DNA from: Billgrantia desiderata
GTDB taxonomy: Bacteria; Pseudomonadota; Gammaproteobacteria; Pseudomonadales; Halomonadaceae
Length of the DNA: 64,000 nucleotides
Direction: 5' to 3'
Assembly: GCA_011742915.1 (NCBI GenBank)
Contig: JAAQTN010000002.1
Span: 154,616-218,615 of the forward strand
The position numbers and the translations under genes are program-made. The notes below the pieces were generated by a model that worked only from the letters and a program-made list of their open reading frames with translations, made no database searches and was not told the DNA's origin. This document shows, in pieces, positions 6,439 to 15,807 of this stretch (position 1 is its first letter; each line of letters begins with the position of its first letter).

Positions 6439-6897
6439 TCAAACCTGAGGATAAAGCCGTCGGTCAGCCGGGAATGACTCACTGCTCAATGCTGCTTTGC
6501 TTGCATCTGGATGAAGAGGGTTGAGGAGAAAGTTCATGTTGTGGGGAACGATGGCGGAGGGCACTCGCAGCAGAAGCGACTCTCCCGCTTCAAGCCAAGC
6601 GTCCCCAAGGCGCCGTGTGATGTTCAGGTCATCACGCCATGTCGCATCCAGGTCGACCGTGGGCGCGCGACTCACGGCCCCGGAAGGAAGCTCCACTCGT
6701 AGCAGGGTGAATGCCTCGGGAAGTTCGTCTGGCTCCCCTTCCATATGCACCAGGATTTCCAACAGGCAGATGGCCGGGCAATCGCCGAGGTAGACGATGG
6801 GCCTGCCCTTGTTGTGCCAACGCCCAGCCACCTTGGTACCGCCAATGCCCGAGAGATCCTGAAACTGTGAGATCCACCAGAGGCTTTCCTTGGTCAT
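6439..6897 (-). CDS. RES-domain toxin
   Basis: A protein of 152 residues with a complete RES domain, the NAD+-degrading toxin of Xre/RES toxin-antitoxin pairs. Visible features: VAGRWHNKGRPIVYLG (conserved Arg and Tyr), AICLLEILVHM (conserved Glu), VPSAIVPHNMNFLLNP and a final DRRLY segment. The start overlaps the stop of the upstream Xre antitoxin gene (ATGA), which fixes it. One oddity: the first strand reads LWWIS where relatives, as I recall them, read LWRIS, so an Arg thought to contact NAD+ seems to be Trp (TGG; CGG would need one change). The toxin may be weakened or dead. Confidence 0.88.
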   Translation of the reverse strand: MTKESLWWISQFQDLSGIGGTKVAGRWHNKGRPIVYLGDCPAICLLEILVHMEGEPDELPEAFTLLRVELPSGAVSRAPTVDLDATWRDDLNITRRLGDAWLEAGESLLLRVPSAIVPHNMNFLLNPLHPDASKAALSSESFPADRRLYPQV

Positions 6898-7328
6898 GCG
6901 ACGTACCCATGGCGCAGCTGCTCCAGTAGCTCCTCTACTGCCAGGTAGCCAGGGGTCGTCTTGACGGCCTCGAAAGCATTTCGCCCGCCAAGGGCTCTGC
7001 GCGGCTTGTTCAGCCAGGTGGCCGCTTTTTCCTGGCTAACGAAAACATCCTCAGCCAGCACGACGATGCGGCTCACGCGATAGAGTCGATCGCCTTCATC
7101 GCTGTTCAATGGTTCAGACTTCTGTCGGCGGTGACGCAGTGTACGAGGATTGATGATACCCAGCCGGCCGGCATCGATGCCATGTTGGGCAAGCTTGTCC
7201 AGAACCGACAGAGGGATGCCAGCCCGGATCAGCGCGTCCAGAGTGTCACCTTCGTGCCCTCCAAGGAGTTCCAGGACCTCCTCTTCAATGTCGCGCTCGT
7301 GTTCGCGTTCTTTAGTCAGCGCCTGCAT
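6894..7328 (-). CDS. Xre/MbcA/ParS-type antitoxin (DUF2384)
   Basis: A protein of 144 residues. The N-terminal part is helical and Xre-like (IPLSVLDKLAQHGID; INPRTLRHRRQKS). The C-terminal part is the toxin-binding DUF2384 domain (DRLYRVSRIVVLAEDVFVSQEKAATWLNKPRRALGGRNAFEAVKTTPGYLAVEELL, seen as the order AEDVF - ATWL - ALGG - P - E). It neutralises the RES toxin encoded by the overlapping next gene and usually represses the pair. It lies 138 bp downstream of jetD on the same strand, so it could be co-transcribed with the Wadjet operon or have its own promoter. Confidence 0.9.
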   Translation of the reverse strand: MQALTKEREHERDIEEEVLELLGGHEGDTLDALIRAGIPLSVLDKLAQHGIDAGRLGIINPRTLRHRRQKSEPLNSDEGDRLYRVSRIVVLAEDVFVSQEKAATWLNKPRRALGGRNAFEAVKTTPGYLAVEELLEQLRHGYVA

Positions 7329-7466: not shown

Positions 7467-8573
7467 TTACTGTGAGATACGCTCCATGAGTTCGTTCTGC
7501 ACACACGGTGTAAGCGCGCTGCCTGCCAACTCTTGAACCTGCACATCCTCCAGCCACTCCTGATCGAGCCCACGTTGCCAATCTCCGGCGGTGCGCTGCC
7601 CTGCCTTTCCGGTCAATGCATCGAGGGGATGACAAGTTCCCGTTTCCAGGGCAGCGAGCATGGGGCCGAACAGTGCGGAAAGCGCCAGCTCAGGCAGGGA
7701 GCGGCGTAGCTTCTGATAGATGCGCAGTCCTTCGGGGTCGAGATCGCCCCAGTAAGTGGGGCTGGGCAGGCGCAGCAAATCAGCCAGGGTGACACCGGCC
7801 GTTCCTTGACCGACCAGCCGTACCCGATCCCCACTCTCCAAAGCGTTGGCTAGAGAGAGGCCATAGCCGAACGTGCAGATCAAGGCCAGGCGCTCGCCAC
7901 ACCCCACGCGGCAGGCCTGACTGAAACTCTGCGCGTTCTCGATCAGCAGGAGTCCCTTGGGCTGCTCGGGCACGCTGGCCAGCAGCCAGGTCTCGGCAGC
8001 CTGGAAGCTGTCCGGCTCGATACCGAACGAGCGCACCAGCTCGGTGGGCAGAGTCTCGAGCAGTTTGCTGCTTCCCAGCAGGTAGCGCGCGCTGGCTACG
8101 TAGGGGCTTAGCTGGTAGGCACCCGGCAGGTCGTTGGCCAGCCGTCTGAGGCCTTCGGCCAGGGCCAGTTGGTCCTCAGTGCTCCAGCTACCGAGCGGCC
8201 CTTCCTGTGCCCTCCGCCACGCCGAGTGCTGCCTAGGTTCCAATGCCAGCCGTGGGTCCAATGCAGGAGAAACCGACATCAGGGCCTCCCTACGCGCAGC
8301 CGCCAACTCGATTTTCACCGGCAGCTTCGCGCGAGGCGAGAGCAGGACACCCGCCGGAAGAGCGATGAACTCAGCGCGCCCCAACTCCTCCAGTACCTGC
8401 CAGGCATGCAGTTCCGTCTCACAGATGCCCTTCTGTTGGAGCATCTGGATCAAGGTAAATGAGCGCCACCCTTTACCTTTTCCGCCGCGTGAGTAGGCGC
8501 GCTGCCACTCTCCTTCGAGCCAGGCCAGGGCAGCCCTGGCCGCCTCGTTGAGCATCAGAGTGGCATCGCGCAT
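7467..8573 (-). CDS. jetD: JetD/MksG-like Toprim nuclease subunit of a Wadjet system
   Basis: A protein of 368 residues. The C-terminal half is a DUF2220-type Toprim fold: the Glu strand (GLLLIENAQSF, about residue 215) and the Asp-x-Asp strand (TYWGDLDPEGLRIYQKL, about residues 278-294). In Wadjet systems JetD cuts circular plasmid DNA after the JetABC SMC complex has extruded it. The N-terminal half is helical with winged-helix-like stretches and would contact JetA or DNA. It starts 3 bp after the jetC stop, so it is fourth in the operon. The C-terminus ends without extra domains. I recognise it from the motifs plus operon context; sequence similarity to classic JetD is modest. Confidence 0.85.
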   Translation of the reverse strand: MRDATLMLNEAARAALAWLEGEWQRAYSRGGKGKGWRSFTLIQMLQQKGICETELHAWQVLEELGRAEFIALPAGVLLSPRAKLPVKIELAAARREALMSVSPALDPRLALEPRQHSAWRRAQEGPLGSWSTEDQLALAEGLRRLANDLPGAYQLSPYVASARYLLGSSKLLETLPTELVRSFGIEPDSFQAAETWLLASVPEQPKGLLLIENAQSFSQACRVGCGERLALICTFGYGLSLANALESGDRVRLVGQGTAGVTLADLLRLPSPTYWGDLDPEGLRIYQKLRRSLPELALSALFGPMLAALETGTCHPLDALTGKAGQRTAGDWQRGLDQEWLEDVQVQELAGSALTPCVQNELMERISQ

Positions 8574-8576
8574 CGC

Positions 8577-11500
8577 TTACTCCTGGGTCGCCGGCTCGCT
8601 GACGTGGATACCGAACAGGCTGGCCTCGCCGACGCTGCGGCCCAGCGATTCCGGCGCGGCGATGCGGCCGTCGCGCACCATCACGTGGCCGCCCTGCCCC
8701 TGAGCGCCGCCGATCACGCTGCCCACCAGGTAGGTGGGGAAGATGTCGGGGTCGTTCTCGTAGTTGGGGTTGTGGATCAGGCCGATCATCTGGAAGCGTC
8801 CGCGGGTATTGCGCAGCGACTCCAGCGAGTCCTGGATCAGGCGGCGGTGCGAGAGCTTGGAGAACAGGCCGTCGAGAAGGATCACGCTCTCGCGGCTGGT
8901 ACGCGCGCGGCGGCGGTGGTGCCCCGGCAGTTCGCGCAGCTCGCGCTCGATGGCGAACTCGGAGAGCTTGACCAGCCACATCAGCGACACCGCCTCGCGC
9001 TGGCCCTCCGACATCTCCTCGTTGAGCGAGAATAGCCGCCCGTGAGGACGAATGGCGTCATGCTTGAGGCGGATCGCTACGTCGTGGAACAGCCCGCGGT
9101 AGATGCGCCGGCGGATCTGGCGCAGCAGGTCATCGTCGCGCCGGCGCGCCTCGCCGTCGACCATGCCGCCGTCGCGCTCGGCGCGGCGACGCATGGCGGC
9201 CTGGTGCTCGTCGATGTCGGCCAGCAGCGTGGCAATCAGCTCGCGCAGCTGGTCGGGGCCGATCAGCGAGGCCTTGACCTCGAAGAAGGCACCGCCCTCG
9301 CCGCTGCTCTTGGCCACGCGCTTGAGGATGTCGAGGTTGCCGGCGGCGTCCGAGATGATCGAGCTGAGGCGCTCCACCAGGGTGCCTTCGATCTGCTCGC
9401 GGGAAGCGTGCAGCCGTTCGACCCGTATCTTGTGGTCGTCGAGCTGGCCGGCGAGCTGATCATGGAGACGCGAAAGGTCGTCCAGCGCCTCGGCGCTGGC
9501 CTGGTTCGAGCTGGAATGACTCAGCCCGGCCAGGCGAGCGCGCTCGGTGTCGCTGAACATGCGGCTGTGGGCCGCTTCCGCCAGGGCCTCGGCCAGCTTG
9601 CGCTCGGCGCCCTCGACCTGGCGCGCCTGGCGCTCGCGGTTGCGCGCCTGCTCGCCCAGGTTGAGTTCCCCGAGGGCATCGACCAGGGTCTGCTGACAGG
9701 CCTCCAGCGCTTCGATGTCGAGTTCGCCCTGCCCCTCGCTACCGGTCATGTCGTGCCAGGCGTCGAGGGCGGCGTTGCGCGCCGCGTGCTCGTCCGCCTC
9801 CCCGGGCCAGCGGCTGGCCTCGGCGAGATCGACCAGTGCCGCCAGGCGCCGCGGCCACCCCTCGGGCAGGTCACGCAGCACCCGCAGCCACTCCACCGCC
9901 AGTTGATCGATGCAGGCCAGTGCCCGGCGCTGCTCGGCCAGGCGCGCTTCCAAGGCGTCGCGCTCTTCCCCACGGGCCTTGCGCGTCTCGCGCAGTTCAC
10001 CCAGCTCGCGCCGCACCCGGGCGATTTCGCGCTCGAGCTTCTGGCTGCCACCGGCGGCATCGCGCACCTCCAGATAGGCGCGAATGCGGGTGAAGTCGAA
10101 GTCGGCACGGCGGGTCGCCCGGGCCTGAGCGGCTTCCAGCTCCTCCTGCACCTCGGCGGCAGTGACCATGAAGTCGACGCCACCCTCGGCTTCGAAACGC
10201 GCCAAGGCGCGCAGGCGGTCGCGCTCGCTGTCGCTGAAGATGCCGCGCAGCTGGGCCTCGGTCTCTTCGACCTGACGCTTGAGCGTCTCGCGCTGCTCCT
10301 CGGCGGCGGCCAGGCGCACGCTTGCCTCACTCAGGTGCCGCTCGAGTTCGGCGAGGCGCGCCTCCAGCGCCTGCAGCCGCTCGACGCCGCCGGCGTCGCT
10401 GAACTGCTCGGCGGCAAGCCAGGTCTGGCCGTGGGCCTCCAGCTCGCGGGCCGCCGCTTCGCGCCGCGGTGCGAGTTCGGTCAGCGCCGTCTCGGCTTCG
10501 AGCCGCGCCTCCGCGGCCTCCTGCTGGGCGAACTCGCCGCCCTCTTGCAGGTAGCGCTGGTAGTCGTCGATACAGGCGAGCGCGACATCGGTCAGCCGCG
10601 GCGCCAGCGCCGCCTCGCGCTCGGCCAATGCCGCCTGCCGCTCGGCCAGGGCCTCCAGGGCCACCTCGACCTGGGCCTCGTCGGCCTCGCGGGCGCGCAG
10701 TGCCAGAGCGAAGGTTTCACCATGGGGATCGAGCCGCTCGCACTCCACGGCCAGCGCCTTTTGCCGCTCACGGTCGGCGGTCAGCCGCTTCTCGGTGGCC
10801 TCGCGCAGCGCTTCCAGATAGCTCGGGTCCAGCGCGGCCTTCACCGCCAGGGTCTCGACGCCGGCCACTGCGCCCAAAGGCGGTTCGCCACGGCTCAGCA
10901 GGCCGGTCAGCGCCTCGGCCTCGAACACCGGCACCGCCAGGCCCGCCTCGATCAGCGTGGCAGCGGCTGCCTCGGCCGCCTCGCGCCCGGCCACCACCGG
11001 GGCGAACAGCACCCCGGCGGCCTGCACCAGCCACTCGCGGCGCTGCTCGGGGGTATGGGTCTCGACGTTGAGCACCGCATGCAGCGGCTGCCAGGCGATG
11101 CCGACTTCGTCCAGTTGGCGGTGGGCCTCGGCCTCCACCACGCGCCGCTCCAGCGGATCGCCGGAGAGACTCTCCAGGTAGCGCTCTCGGGCGGCGATGT
11201 CGGCTTCCAGCGTCTCCGCTTCGCGCAGCAGCCGCGGGTAGCGGCGGCGGGCGTCGGTCAGCCACTTCTCCGGGGCCAGCTCGCTGCGCTCGGCGAAGTC
11301 GAGCCGCGCCCGGTGCAGCGTGCGCAGGTGGTTCTCTTCGTCGAGCAGCCGCTTGCGCTCGTCGCCCAGTTCGCGCTCCCGCTCGCGCAGGCGTGAGCGC
11401 AGGTGCACCGGCTCGTCATCGCCATGCAGCTCAGCGTAACGACGGGCGGCCTCGGCCAGCGGTGCCAGCCGGGCCAGGGTACGCTCGGCCTCCTGACGGC

Positions 11501-13505
11501 GCTGCTCGGCCTCGCGACAGTTCGATTCCAGCTCGGCCAGCGCGGTCTTGCGCCGCGTCCAGAAGCCGCTCACCTCTTCACCCGGCCAGCCCTCGACGAA
11601 GGCGCGCCAGGGCGCCTGGCCGCGGGCCAGCAGGCCCTGCTCGCCGGTCAGGCGCTCCCGCTCTCCGTTGAGCCGCTCACGCTCGGCCCGGGCGGTCTCG
11701 AAGGCGCCGAGCGCCTCGTCGCGGCGCCGGGTCAGCTCGTCGAGGGACTCGGCCAGCTCGGCCTCGCGCTCCAGCTTCTCCTCGAGCCGCTCGGCCGGTG
11801 CGGTACCCGGGCACTCGCGGCGGTAGGCATCGTGCCAGGCGGCGATCTGCTTGAGCTCGCCGACGCGGCCCAGGTGCGCGTTGAGAGCACGGCGAGCGTC
11901 GGCGGCCTCGGCCTTGGCCGCCTCGGCGCTGGCTTCGGGGGTTTCCAGCTCGGCCTCGCTAAACAGCCCCTCGGCCAGCGCCTGGGTGTAGAAGCTCTGG
12001 TTGTCGACGAAGTCGCGCTGCTGGGACTCCAGCCGCTCGCGCTCGTGCTCCAGGTCGTCGCGGCGCTCGTCCAGTTCGGCGAGTTCACGGGTCAGCTCCT
12101 CGAGATAGACTCCGTCGCCGATCACCTCCTCGCGGAAGCGGTTGCCATCGGCGGCCTCGAAGGCGTCGGCGCCCTCGTCCAACGCGCTCAGGGCGCGGTC
12201 GCGGGCCGTGTCGTCGGCCAGGGCGTGGCTTTCGGCCAGCCACTCACGGGCAGCCTTGAAGCTGACGTGGCCGACGTCGCGGTTGAGCGGCCACTCGGCC
12301 TGGGGCAGGTGAATCAGCCGGCGGTGCACGTCGACCCGGGCGCCGCGCTCGGAGAGCGCCTGGCGCACGGCCCGTTCGGAAAGGCCGGAAAGCGTCGCCA
12401 GCAGCGAGGTGGAGACCCGCGGGCGCGAGGTATCGCCGGCGATCCAGGCGAAGCCATCCAGCGGAGCGGCCCCGCGCGCTTCGGCGTCATCCTCGGCGTC
12501 ATTCTCGGCAGCGGCCCGGGGCAGCCCGGGTAGGCCGAGCAGCGCTTGGCCGCCCAGCAAGGCTTCGCTGGCAGCCAGGCCCTGATCCAGCTCCATCAGG
12601 CGAGTGCGGGCGTCGCGCAGCGACTCGCCCTGCTCGCGCAGCTCGGCCAGGCGCACCACCTTGTCGCTGGCGCGGCGCTGGTCGCTCTCGGCTTCCTCCA
12701 GGCGATGGCGCAGCTCGGTGATGTTGGTGCCGGAGTTGAGGATCACCTCCTCGATCAGCTCCTCGCTCTCGTCGGTCTCCCCGCGGGTGGCGCCGGAGAG
12801 GATCTCGGGGGCCAGCACCTCGAAGAAGAACGCCTGGTCGGCCTTCTCGCCGGCGCGGGGCTTGATGGCGTTGAAGATCTGGCTCTTGTCGGCGCCGCCC
12901 TCCTTCTGGAAGGCGGCGAGCTGGGCCAGTTCGCGACGGGAGACGTGGGCGCCCACCGCCTCGAGCCACTCCTCGCGGTTGTGGGTCAGGCGCACGTTAC
13001 GCTCGGCCATGGCCGCCTTGACGTCGCGGTTGGCGTAGAGCGCCAGCTTGCCGTCGAGGGTCTGGTGGTGCACCGGCACGTCTTCGAGACGCCCGGCATA
13101 GTGGTAGAAGGAAAGCCCGCTGCCGTCGCTGTAGCCGTAGAAACCGAACACGAAGGTTTCGCCGGCCACCTCCTCACCCGCCGCAGCGAGCATGTCGTCC
13201 TGGCGCTCGAGCCCGCTGCGCGACCGGAACTCCACCCGCAGGTGGCTCCAGCTACGCGCCGTGCCGCCCACCGCCGAGGGCGAGCACTTGCGCCGGGTGC
13301 GCGAGAGCAGCGTGCGGTCCCGCGACAGCAGGCCGATCAGCGCCTCGGAGAGCGTGGTCTTGCCGAAGCCGTTCTCCATGCTGATGGCGCTCGATTGGCC
13401 GCGCAGGTCGAGCAGCAGGTGACGCATCTTGGCGTCCCAGGGCGAGGCCACGTCGCCGTGCTTGTTGAGCAGGTTGGCGACCTCGATGCGGTTGATCACG
13501 CTCAT
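8577..13505 (-). CDS. jetC: JetC/MksB-like SMC ATPase of a Wadjet system
   Basis: A large SMC protein of 1642 residues. The N-terminal head has Walker A (ENGFGKTT, residues 44-51). Long Glu/Arg/Ala-rich coiled coil fills about residues 260-1380 with a mid-protein non-coiled hinge-like part near 780-900. The C-terminal head has a signature-like motif MSEGQ (1498-1502) and a Walker B strand VILLDGLF (1541-1548). This is longer than MukB (about 1490) and much longer than MksB as usually described. The Walker B Asp is followed by Gly (codon at 8868-8870) instead of the usual catalytic Glu. The ATG overlaps the jetB stop (ATGA). SMC action: ATP-driven loop extrusion that senses small circular DNA. 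Confidence 0.9.
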   Translation of the reverse strand: MSVINRIEVANLLNKHGDVASPWDAKMRHLLLDLRGQSSAISMENGFGKTTLSEALIGLLSRDRTLLSRTRRKCSPSAVGGTARSWSHLRVEFRSRSGLERQDDMLAAAGEEVAGETFVFGFYGYSDGSGLSFYHYAGRLEDVPVHHQTLDGKLALYANRDVKAAMAERNVRLTHNREEWLEAVGAHVSRRELAQLAAFQKEGGADKSQIFNAIKPRAGEKADQAFFFEVLAPEILSGATRGETDESEELIEEVILNSGTNITELRHRLEEAESDQRRASDKVVRLAELREQGESLRDARTRLMELDQGLAASEALLGGQALLGLPGLPRAAAENDAEDDAEARGAAPLDGFAWIAGDTSRPRVSTSLLATLSGLSERAVRQALSERGARVDVHRRLIHLPQAEWPLNRDVGHVSFKAAREWLAESHALADDTARDRALSALDEGADAFEAADGNRFREEVIGDGVYLEELTRELAELDERRDDLEHERERLESQQRDFVDNQSFYTQALAEGLFSEAELETPEASAEAAKAEAADARRALNAHLGRVGELKQIAAWHDAYRRECPGTAPAERLEEKLEREAELAESLDELTRRRDEALGAFETARAERERLNGERERLTGEQGLLARGQAPWRAFVEGWPGEEVSGFWTRRKTALAELESNCREAEQRRQEAERTLARLAPLAEAARRYAELHGDDEPVHLRSRLRERERELGDERKRLLDEENHLRTLHRARLDFAERSELAPEKWLTDARRRYPRLLREAETLEADIAARERYLESLSGDPLERRVVEAEAHRQLDEVGIAWQPLHAVLNVETHTPEQRREWLVQAAGVLFAPVVAGREAAEAAAATLIEAGLAVPVFEAEALTGLLSRGEPPLGAVAGVETLAVKAALDPSYLEALREATEKRLTADRERQKALAVECERLDPHGETFALALRAREADEAQVEVALEALAERQAALAEREAALAPRLTDVALACIDDYQRYLQEGGEFAQQEAAEARLEAETALTELAPRREAAARELEAHGQTWLAAEQFSDAGGVERLQALEARLAELERHLSEASVRLAAAEEQRETLKRQVEETEAQLRGIFSDSERDRLRALARFEAEGGVDFMVTAAEVQEELEAAQARATRRADFDFTRIRAYLEVRDAAGGSQKLEREIARVRRELGELRETRKARGEERDALEARLAEQRRALACIDQLAVEWLRVLRDLPEGWPRRLAALVDLAEASRWPGEADEHAARNAALDAWHDMTGSEGQGELDIEALEACQQTLVDALGELNLGEQARNRERQARQVEGAERKLAEALAEAAHSRMFSDTERARLAGLSHSSSNQASAEALDDLSRLHDQLAGQLDDHKIRVERLHASREQIEGTLVERLSSIISDAAGNLDILKRVAKSSGEGGAFFEVKASLIGPDQLRELIATLLADIDEHQAAMRRRAERDGGMVDGEARRRDDDLLRQIRRRIYRGLFHDVAIRLKHDAIRPHGRLFSLNEEMSEGQREAVSLMWLVKLSEFAIERELRELPGHHRRRARTSRESVILLDGLFSKLSHRRLIQDSLESLRNTRGRFQMIGLIHNPNYENDPDIFPTYLVGSVIGGAQGQGGHVMVRDGRIAAPESLGRSVGEASLFGIHVSEPATQE

Positions 13506-14341
13506 GCCTGGGTCTCCTCGTGCTCGTCGATGTCGGCCTCGTACGCGTCTTCATCCCGATAGCGGCCCTGGGCACGCCCCTGAGCCAGCGCCTGCAGGTG
13601 GCCGAGCTGGTGGATGCCGATCTGCTCGCTCTCCAGCGCGCCCAGCAGGGTCTGCTGCCACACCTCGCCGACGCTCTCCTCGGCGCCGGCACTCGCTTCG
13701 GCGTCGCGCAGGCCTTCGAGCAGCCCGGCGCGCACCTGCAGGTCGATGAAGGCACGCACCCGGCGGCTGATGTCCTCGCCGCGCTCCTCCAGCAGCACGC
13801 GGCTGCTCTCCGGCGCCTCCTCGCCCAGGCTACGCAGCGTCTCCAGCTGGTCGCGCATCAGCTCGACCAGCTCGGCTCCGGCGAAGGTGGCCTCCTGGTA
13901 GCGGCTGACGTCGGAGAGCGCGCGGTTGTAACGGGTGTAGAGCAGCGTGTGCATCAGCAGCCACAGCTGCAGGTACCACTGGGCCAGCTCGGCGCGGCTC
14001 TCCTGGCGCAGCTTGAGCGCCTCGAACACCGGCTCGCGGGTGTAGAGCGGCGGCTGCTCCAGCTCCGGGTCGGGCAGCAGCGCGTAGTAGCGCGAACCGG
14101 GCGCGATGCCGGGGTAGTCGCCGGACTCGAAGGCCTTGAGCCTCAGCCCCTGCCCGGCCAGAAAGTCGCGCAGCGCCTCGCGCTCGGCCTCGCTGGCGTC
14201 GTCGATCAACGCGCAGACGTCGCGCTCGGAGAGCTGGCCCTCGCGGGCGGCGCGGCGCTTGCGCCCGCCGCCCGGGGTGCGTTCGGCGCTGCGGTAGCGC
14301 AGCAGGTAGGCGACCACTTCGCCCATCTCGGTCATGTTCAT
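13502..14341 (-). CDS. jetB: JetB/MksE-like KITE subunit of a Wadjet system
   Basis: A protein of 279 residues without a signal peptide. It begins with a winged-helix-like region that includes a basic loop (GGGRKRRAAREGQLSERDVCALID) and continues with helices containing LYTREPVFEALKLRQESRAELAQWYLQLWLLMH. Size, helical content and position between the kleisin-like jetA and the SMC jetC fit the MukE/MksE/JetB (KITE) role: bridging kleisin and SMC heads. It overlaps both neighbours by 4 bp (ATGA each side), which shows translational coupling and fixed stoichiometry. The assignment rests mainly on context. Confidence 0.8.
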   Translation of the reverse strand: MNMTEMGEVVAYLLRYRSAERTPGGGRKRRAAREGQLSERDVCALIDDASEAEREALRDFLAGQGLRLKAFESGDYPGIAPGSRYYALLPDPELEQPPLYTREPVFEALKLRQESRAELAQWYLQLWLLMHTLLYTRYNRALSDVSRYQEATFAGAELVELMRDQLETLRSLGEEAPESSRVLLEERGEDISRRVRAFIDLQVRAGLLEGLRDAEASAGAEESVGEVWQQTLLGALESEQIGIHQLGHLQALAQGRAQGRYRDEDAYEADIDEHEETQA

Positions 14342-15807
14342 ACTGGCTCGTCCTGATCGATGCGCGATATGTCGTTAGGCGCGGCAGCGGGCGCCTGCAA
14401 GGAATGCGGTGCAGCTTCGGGCGCCTGAAAAAAGCCAAGAGAGGGGGTCACAGCCCCCTCGATGCGGCGGCCGTCGTCGAGTTCGAGCTCGAACGGCGTC
14501 GCGTCGATACCCACCGTCAGCCCCGAGGCCAGCAGTTCGGTATCGACGAAGGTGTTGAGCAGTTGGGCCAGGCAGTCGCCCTCCTCGAAGCGGTGCCAGC
14601 CCTCGGTCAGCGCCTCGGGCAGCGACAGCGGTGCGCGTCTGAGGCGCTGGCGCAGCGCCGGCCCGCGCGCTTCGAGGAAGCGTGCCAGCAGCGGGTCCTC
14701 GGGGGCGGCGTCGCGCGCCTCGTCGAACACCAGCGCCACCGGGCTGACGTCGGCGCGACGACTCTCGAGCAGCGGCACCAGCGGCGCCAAACGCGGGAAG
14801 GTGGCCTGCACGTGCAGCGGCATCATGCGCGCCACCACCGCATCGCGCAGCGCACCTGCGGGCGGCGCCTCGAGCAGCTGGCGCGCCATGTCCTGGAAGT
14901 CGATCACGCCCATGGCCTGGATGCGCCCCTCGGCGATGTCGGCAAGCAGCTCCGAGAGCCGCCGCGAGAGGTTCTCGATGGCGGTGAGCACGCGGCCGAT
15001 GGCGCCGGAGAGCACGCGCAGGTCCCAGTCGTCGGACTGCGCCTCGCGCCAGCTCTCGAAGCGCTCCATCAGGCGCGGCGTGGCGAGCTGGGCGCGGGCG
15101 TCGAGCAGGGTCTGCTGAATGTTGGTCAGGGCGTTGTGGTAGTGGCGCTCGTTGTCGAGCAGCGCGGAAAGCTTGCCCTCGCGAGTGGGGTTCTCGCGCA
15201 CCCGGCGCAGCTCCTGGGTCAGCGCGCGGATGGCCAGCAGGATCTGGTTGGTGATGTCGGGAATACGGGCGAAATCGCCCCGCGCCAGCGCCGCCAGCAC
15301 CTTGGCGGCGTCGTACTCGGAGTAGAGCAGGTCCTCGACCTGGCTGGCCAGGGTCACCGCCTGGCGGCCGCTCGGGGTGAGGCGCACCTGGCCGGTCTGG
15401 CCCTGCTTCTCGATCAGCGCGGTGCGCTTGGTGCTGCGCCGGCTGCGCTCCTCTGCCGTCGCGTCGTCGCCCGTCGTCGGCGATGACGATGGCTGACGAA
15501 AGTGGATCTCGCTGGGGGTGGAGAGCAGATTGATGACGAAGCTCAGGTCGTCGTGGGGCAGCCCCGGGTACACCTCGCGCAGGTGATTGAGGCAGCGGCT
15601 CTGCGAGACGAAGGCGCTGTTGGTGGCGAAATCCTCGTCGAGCAGATAGTCGAGCAGCAGGCAGCCGAGGTCGAGCCAGTAGCCGTCGCGCAGGCCGCGA
15701 CGCTGCTCCTGGCTCACCTGAACGAAGGGAGAGCCGGGCTCGTGGGCGGTGTCGTGCAGGTCGATCAGCCGCGTCGTGGCGATCAGCAGCTTGCTCCAGG
15801 CGGTCAT
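14338..15807 (-). CDS. jetA: JetA/MksF-like kleisin subunit of a Wadjet system
   Basis: A protein of 489 residues, the first gene of the jetABCD operon. The N-terminal 150 residues look like a winged-helix dimer domain (DGYWLDLGCLLLDYLLDEDFATNSAFVSQSR; LIEKQGQTGQVRLTPSGRQ). A helical middle (about 155-330) resembles MukF/MksF, and a C-terminal part (about 430-470, TPFELELDDGRRIEGAVTPSLGFF) would contact the SMC head. In Wadjet the kleisin closes the ring formed by two JetC molecules. A 96-bp gap with room for a promoter separates it from the DUF99 gene upstream on the same strand. Function is assigned from size, architecture and operon order. Confidence 0.8.
   Translation of the reverse strand: MTAWSKLLIATTRLIDLHDTAHEPGSPFVQVSQEQRRGLRDGYWLDLGCLLLDYLLDEDFATNSAFVSQSRCLNHLREVYPGLPHDDLSFVINLLSTPSEIHFRQPSSSPTTGDDATAEERSRRSTKRTALIEKQGQTGQVRLTPSGRQAVTLASQVEDLLYSEYDAAKVLAALARGDFARIPDITNQILLAIRALTQELRRVRENPTREGKLSALLDNERHYHNALTNIQQTLLDARAQLATPRLMERFESWREAQSDDWDLRVLSGAIGRVLTAIENLSRRLSELLADIAEGRIQAMGVIDFQDMARQLLEAPPAGALRDAVVARMMPLHVQATFPRLAPLVPLLESRRADVSPVALVFDEARDAAPEDPLLARFLEARGPALRQRLRRAPLSLPEALTEGWHRFEEGDCLAQLLNTFVDTELLASGLTVGIDATPFELELDDGRRIEGAVTPSLGFFQAPEAAPHSLQAPAAAPNDISRIDQDEPV

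Follow-up and report, generated by a model that had tools for sequence, protein, structure and literature searches.

A giant SMC operon of Halomonadaceae with an invariant Walker B glycine and a patchily distributed JetD

Type I Wadjet (JetABCD/MksBEFG) entraps and loops DNA and cuts circles, according to part of a review (PMC10586767), which also speculates that MukBEF and MksBEF descend from Wadjet, so that defence complexes would have become nuclease-free ones. An excerpt of a survey of the Wadjet group (PMC7617805) states that MukBEF has no JetD and already includes operons without MksG; the survey may already contain the branch described here. We analysed a 64,000-nucleotide stretch of Billgrantia desiderata DNA (contig JAAQTN010000002.1, positions 154,616 to 218,615; hereafter, the window), which carries four minus-strand open reading frames (ORFs) in the order kleisin, KITE, structural maintenance of chromosomes (SMC) protein, and nuclease (jetA-B-C-D), joined by two 4-bp overlaps and one 3-bp gap. 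With slightly better than even confidence, we read the operon as a member of a diverged MukBEF/Wadjet branch that would restrict circular DNA in this organism and whose core would also have a JetD-independent role. As far as we searched, the loss of the nuclease at the species level with a conserved core and an invariant Walker B glycine are new. The genes are as follows.

14338..15807, minus strand: ORF for a JetA/MukF-like kleisin, 489 residues
13502..14341, minus strand: ORF for a JetB/MukE-like KITE protein, 279 residues
8577..13505, minus strand: ORF for a JetC/MukB-like giant SMC, 1642 residues, found in 66/66 loci
7467..8573, minus strand: predicted JetD Toprim nuclease, 368 residues (PADLOC and Pfam match, acidic residues kept)

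The coordinates, sizes, junctions, and gene order agreed with a preliminary description made from the sequence alone. The four ORFs are genes rather than chance frames, because the same three core genes occur together in 66 related loci and the ratio of nonsynonymous to synonymous substitution rates (dN/dS) is well below 1. These loci are close relatives found with short patterns and drawn from the 80 best-ranked of 98 confirmed stretches, and their gene counts include genes truncated at contig ends as well as the broken SMC of L058. The kleisin ORF was present in 65 of the 66 and the KITE and SMC ORFs in all, whereas a JetD ORF was present in 22 and full-length in 21. The operon had been called complete, which holds for the B. 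desiderata strain but not for most relatives, which lack the fourth gene. An SMC profile matched 77 of 250 Halomonadaceae genomes, in 13 of 24 genera. With the same draw setting, a JetD profile gave 28 matches in 250 Halomonadaceae genomes. The 24 that were near full length all fell within the 77 SMC-bearing genomes, each directly adjoining jetC; the others were a 45-residue C-terminal remnant beside jetC (G127) and three matches of 20-22 bits over about 31 positions (G044, G146, G222). No full-length JetD away from jetC was found with this profile in the 250 genomes.

On an SMC tree of 66 rows (24 with JetD, 42 without), the presence of JetD changed at least 13 times, 12 of these changes being forced by starred branches, compared with an average of 19.6 for shuffled labels; the count is silent on direction. 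Left out of this tree were L058, whose frame is broken, L036, which nearly duplicates L035, and L010, whose contig stops 629 bp past jetC; L053 was scored as JetD-less on just 205 bp. Remnants of JetD were seen as a 60-residue ORF (L002), as ends joined through an internal deletion (L027), and, by eye, as a degraded start (L006). Distances of JetC and JetD were correlated (r 0.84, 18 rows; none of 2000 permutations as high), the value for JetB and JetC being 0.71; L065, L048, and L051 were dropped from the test, and L064, L077, and L078 also from the family-only figure. Both distant outgroups carry all four genes. Because of the gene remnants, the largely parallel divergence of JetC and JetD, and the complete outgroup operons, we favour repeated loss of JetD rather than gain.

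Pairwise dN/dS of JetC was 0.058-0.103 in 11 JetD-less pairs versus 0.077-0.160 in six JetD-bearing pairs, and JetA and JetB followed the same pattern, JetD-less pairs being as low as JetD-bearing ones; that of JetD itself was 0.197-0.249 (six JetD-bearing pairs). The low values for JetC between JetD-less pairs indicate that the core is retained without the nuclease. Long intact SMCs were found in whole JetD-less groups (13/14 Salinicola-group rows and 3/3 Oceanospirillum), and two strains both listed as Salinicola salarius (L056, L063) differ in JetD presence with SMCs that are about 96% identical. One genome (G016) has the large SMC without the JetD of this branch, plus a separate type I-like Wadjet. 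Since purifying selection still acts on the kleisin, KITE, and SMC in many lineages that have lost JetD, the core may well have a JetD-independent role. One point weighs against a history of pure loss: the nearest neighbour differs between JetC and JetD in 8 of 21 rows. For the dN/dS values, part of some JetD-less branches may be older than the loss.

The ATPase motifs of the SMC were assessed in an alignment of 68 rows, near-copies and both distant outgroups included.

13353..13382, minus strand: SMC Walker A, residues 42-51 (SMENGFGKTT); K49 in 67/68 rows, T50 in 68/68
9000..9014, minus strand: SMC ABC signature-like motif, residues 1498-1502 (MSEGQ); S1499, G1501, and Q1502 in 68/68 rows
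8859..8885, minus strand: SMC Walker B, residues 1541-1549 (VILLDGLFS), Gly1546 replacing the usual Glu; D1545 and G1546 in 68/68 rows

The signature MSEGQ is followed after 40-odd residues by a hydrophobic strand with D-G-L-F-S and then by the H-loop (IHN), in a MukB-like order and spacing. The protein has the Walker A and signature motifs, the aspartate of Walker B, the H-loop, and the long arms expected of an SMC of the MukBEF/Wadjet group; the catalytic Walker B glutamate of the known members is not present in this branch. Asp-Glu was found in all 12 references (seven type I-like, two JetD2-type, one JetD3-type, one untyped, and MukB). This glutamate is the hydrolytic base in ABC ATPases. 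We treated it as a trait of the known members and not as defining the group. With glycine at this position throughout the branch, ATP turnover is likely to be slow or to rely on another catalytic residue; slow turnover would favour DNA holding over fast extrusion.

The size claimed for the SMC was borne out. JetC-like proteins of the branch span 1607-1669 residues in 65 of the 66 loci, the exception being the broken L058, and the two distant outgroup SMCs have 1528 and 1520. Reference JetC proteins range from 1107 to 1380 residues (1107-1143 for seven type I-like, 1117 for the untyped L094, 1217 for a JetD3-type locus, 1377-1380 for JetD2-type loci), and Escherichia coli MukB has 1486. The extra length had been ascribed mainly to coiled coil. 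A crude composition scan agreed with longer arms (about 260-317 plus 414-744, and about 895-1373; on MukB the same scan puts helix-rich stretches at 274-665 and 777-1163), but it also pointed to a non-coiled insert, in which L325, P326, G327, and P329 are invariant in 12/12 diverse members.

12264..12554, minus strand: SMC arm insert, about residues 318-414, borders approximate; in the composition scan, a Pro/Gly-rich interruption of the helix-rich arm
10821..11273, minus strand: probable SMC hinge, about residues 745-895, placed by its mid position between helix-rich arms

Part of a study of such complexes (PMC12647877) reports that longer arms and a hinge without a central channel tend to co-occur in MukBEF, Wadjet-II, and most Wadjet-III, and proposes that longer arms allow threading of obstacles.

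The fourth product is, from its sequence, a member of the JetD Toprim family, in line with the preliminary description: PADLOC JetD1 matched it at 1.3e-15, and Pfam JetD_C matched above cut-off. In hhalign, it reached 97.6% to a JetD3-type JetD (192 columns) and 95.6% to a type I-like JetD, and a JetD profile against PDB sequences gave MksG 8b7f at 0.032 and JetD 8q72 at 0.51. Three acidic residues were invariant.

7938-7940, minus strand: JetD E212, invariant in 20/20
7743-7745, minus strand: JetD D277, invariant in 20/20
7737-7739, minus strand: JetD D279, invariant in 20/20

Among the four products, JetD alone was recognised by PADLOC, Pfam, and NCBIfam, which points to a branch that has diverged within the MukBEF/Wadjet group. 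The Wadjet-type identity proposed earlier was partly supported. PADLOC models of JetA, JetB, and JetC (types I, II, and III) gave no match in the operon at E up to 1. The sole other PADLOC match, LmuB to the SMC (0.0045), and the NCBIfam matches ASRP (2.8e-4) and TrlF (0.0018) fell in coiled regions and were set aside. Searches of PDB sequences with the SMC and kleisin (single or profile) and the KITE (profile only) returned no SMC, kleisin, or KITE chain; the best SMC-profile match, 4xa6 (4.8e-4), is a coiled-coil chimera. MukB N-terminal family PF04310 did not match window protein P0003.

The kleisin and KITE assignments were carried by AlphaFold models. The first product is placed, with moderate support by fold, with MukF/JetA kleisins: its model aligns over 313 residues to a chain of 9qe0, and the kleisin fold is nearest MukF. 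The second product groups less surely with JetB. Neither model had a Foldseek match at E up to 0.001. In hhalign, JetA and JetB reached at most 1.1% to reference JetA and JetB; a type I-like JetA against other reference JetA was equally null, and this test is short of power because the reference proteins failed to match each other. Membership of the MukBEF/Wadjet group is therefore assigned by gene order and, moderately, by fold, for a branch that fits no PADLOC JetA, JetB, or JetC model.

Compared with the described systems, the operon resembles type I Wadjet in the order of its genes, in the family of its JetD, in the kleisin fold and, less surely, the KITE fold, and in the N-terminal SMC head, which in hhalign reached 95.1% to type I-like JetC over 75 columns. 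It differs in that its SMC is about 500 residues longer, with the arm insert and D-G instead of D-E in Walker B, and in that the nuclease is absent from most relatives. Type II (e.g. Neobacillus vireti JetABC, PDB 9qe0) shares the four-gene order, a long-armed SMC, and the alignment of the JetA model, whereas type II-like JetC has D-E and did not match our SMC (hhalign 0.4%), nor did the type II-like JetD match ours (1.3%). MukBEF shares the kleisin fold, a very long SMC, and, with the JetD-less relatives, an SMC-kleisin-KITE complex without nuclease; MukB, however, has D-E in Walker B, and its N-terminal head reached only 53% in hhalign. The C-terminal head and hinge region of our SMC had no profile match to the references. 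MukBEF also replaces Smc-ScpAB, whereas Smc (TIGR02168) and ScpA were above cut-off in each of the 30 genomes checked, of which 15 carry the large SMC and 15 lack it; MukB (PF04310) was above cut-off in 0/30. The complex was therefore rejected as the housekeeping condensin of Halomonadaceae and is extra to it.

By analogy with type I Wadjet, the SMC core together with JetD would entrap and loop DNA, and once a whole circle had been taken up, JetD would dock and cut. Without JetD, the core could hold or compact DNA, chromosomal or foreign. If the Walker B glycine slows ATP turnover or shifts it to another residue, holding of DNA would be favoured over fast extrusion, and the core without cutting would perhaps be a slow-cycling DNA clamp. 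A bolder proposal, which we hold only tentatively and consider unlikely, is that this natural Glu-to-Gly branch is a slow or hydrolysis-impaired DNA clamp, to which JetD adds restriction and from which JetD has been repeatedly shed while the clamp was kept.

It is also unlikely, in our view, that acting on the chromosome as a second, MukBEF/MksBEF-like condensin is the main task of the complex, with JetD a passing accessory and plasmid restriction minor. The core kept at low dN/dS without JetD, its occurrence in 13 genera, and the absence of JetD from MukBEF itself (excerpt of PMC7617805) would fit this, as would a thiamine-binding-protein gene lying within 8 kb downstream in 48/66 loci, which suggests a stable chromosomal place. 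However, 173 of the 250 family genomes lack the complex, and with Smc and ScpA in 30/30 genomes it is not required for chromosome upkeep; moreover, many lineages still carry a complete JetD whose acidic residues are intact. Plain Wadjet-type defence, with the JetD-less loci as inactive leftovers on their way out, appears improbable. Decaying copies do exist (the broken SMC of L058; L065, with a JetD frameshift and Walker A Lys to Arg; the remnants in L002, L027, and L006), but the equally low dN/dS of JetC, JetA, and JetB in JetD-less pairs and the intact SMCs of the Salinicola and Oceanospirillum groups argue against it. That cores without JetD work with another nuclease from elsewhere in the genome, with cleavage still the output, is very doubtful, although an unrelated nuclease acting in trans may exist: effectors are frequently exchanged among defence systems, but the JetD profile found no full-length copy elsewhere in the 250 genomes, and directly downstream in the inspected JetD-less loci are a thiamine-binding protein, a truncated-haemoglobin-like protein (by eye), or unrelated frames.

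Outside Halomonadaceae, a class search matched 2 genomes besides the window's own among 369, and a phylum search (398 genomes) gave none, its three matches all being in the same family. A mobile or phage origin was rejected: there was no phage record, and the only plasmids were two near-identical Pseudomonas aeruginosa records with an SMC fragment. No plasmid record was found for JetA or JetB, and in viral_contigs 14 pattern matches yielded 0 confirmed, with only two short patterns used. The conjugative plasmid pPUV-6 (L076 9232-11999) carries the C-terminal SMC fragment, which has the Walker B glycine (LDGLFS), and a JetD-domain gene next to a Tn3-family transposase.

The window SMC is closest to that of Billgrantia ethanolica (98%, SMC tree comparison). 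Upstream of the operon lie a gene without Pfam match, a sigma-54 activator, and then a phenylalanine-hydroxylase-like gene. Downstream, a RES/Xre toxin-antitoxin pair directly follows jetD (window 6439-7328, minus strand), matched in only 2 of the 66 fetched loci (L002, L009), both Billgrantia; the thiamine-binding-protein gene is present here too. In JetD-less L014, L015, L041, L044, L046, and L054, a conserved gene of about 130-150 residues begins at or near the jetC stop, and its product resembles truncated haemoglobin, as read from the sequence without database search.

Between jetB and jetC, a tandem array with a unit of about 188 bp was seen in L022 (8001-8380), L065 (8001-8380), L023 (8001-8192), and L017 (about 8001-8540, including a stretch of N). 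The units are mini-ORFs of 63 residues (59 for the first of L017) that fuse roughly the 48 N-terminal residues of JetC to a JetB-like tail, and they are joined by ATGA overlaps in one to two or more extra copies; an extra JetC N-terminal match occurs likewise in genomes G157, G215, G231, and G242. The array may modulate how jetC is translated, or it may simply reflect slippage. In Halomonas beimenensis (L065), JetC (8377-13248) has Walker A Lys to Arg, as in its decoy units, and JetD (13245-14384) is frameshifted at its C-terminus, so that the system looks to be decaying. One genome has two SMC gene copies of equal score on two contigs (L035 and L036; G134:C6 and G134:C27), either a duplication or an assembly artefact.

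JetA, JetB, and JetC of this branch escape the PADLOC models used. If the clamp proposal is true, the branch would show at species level how plasmid defence passes, as has been proposed, into a complex that resembles MukBEF and has no nuclease. This passage is testable in near-isogenic pairs, because close species and the two S. salarius strains differ in the nuclease. The invariant Walker B glycine would be a natural test of whether SMC complexes need the standard ATP hydrolysis step, and the system may show how a defence machine turns into something else.

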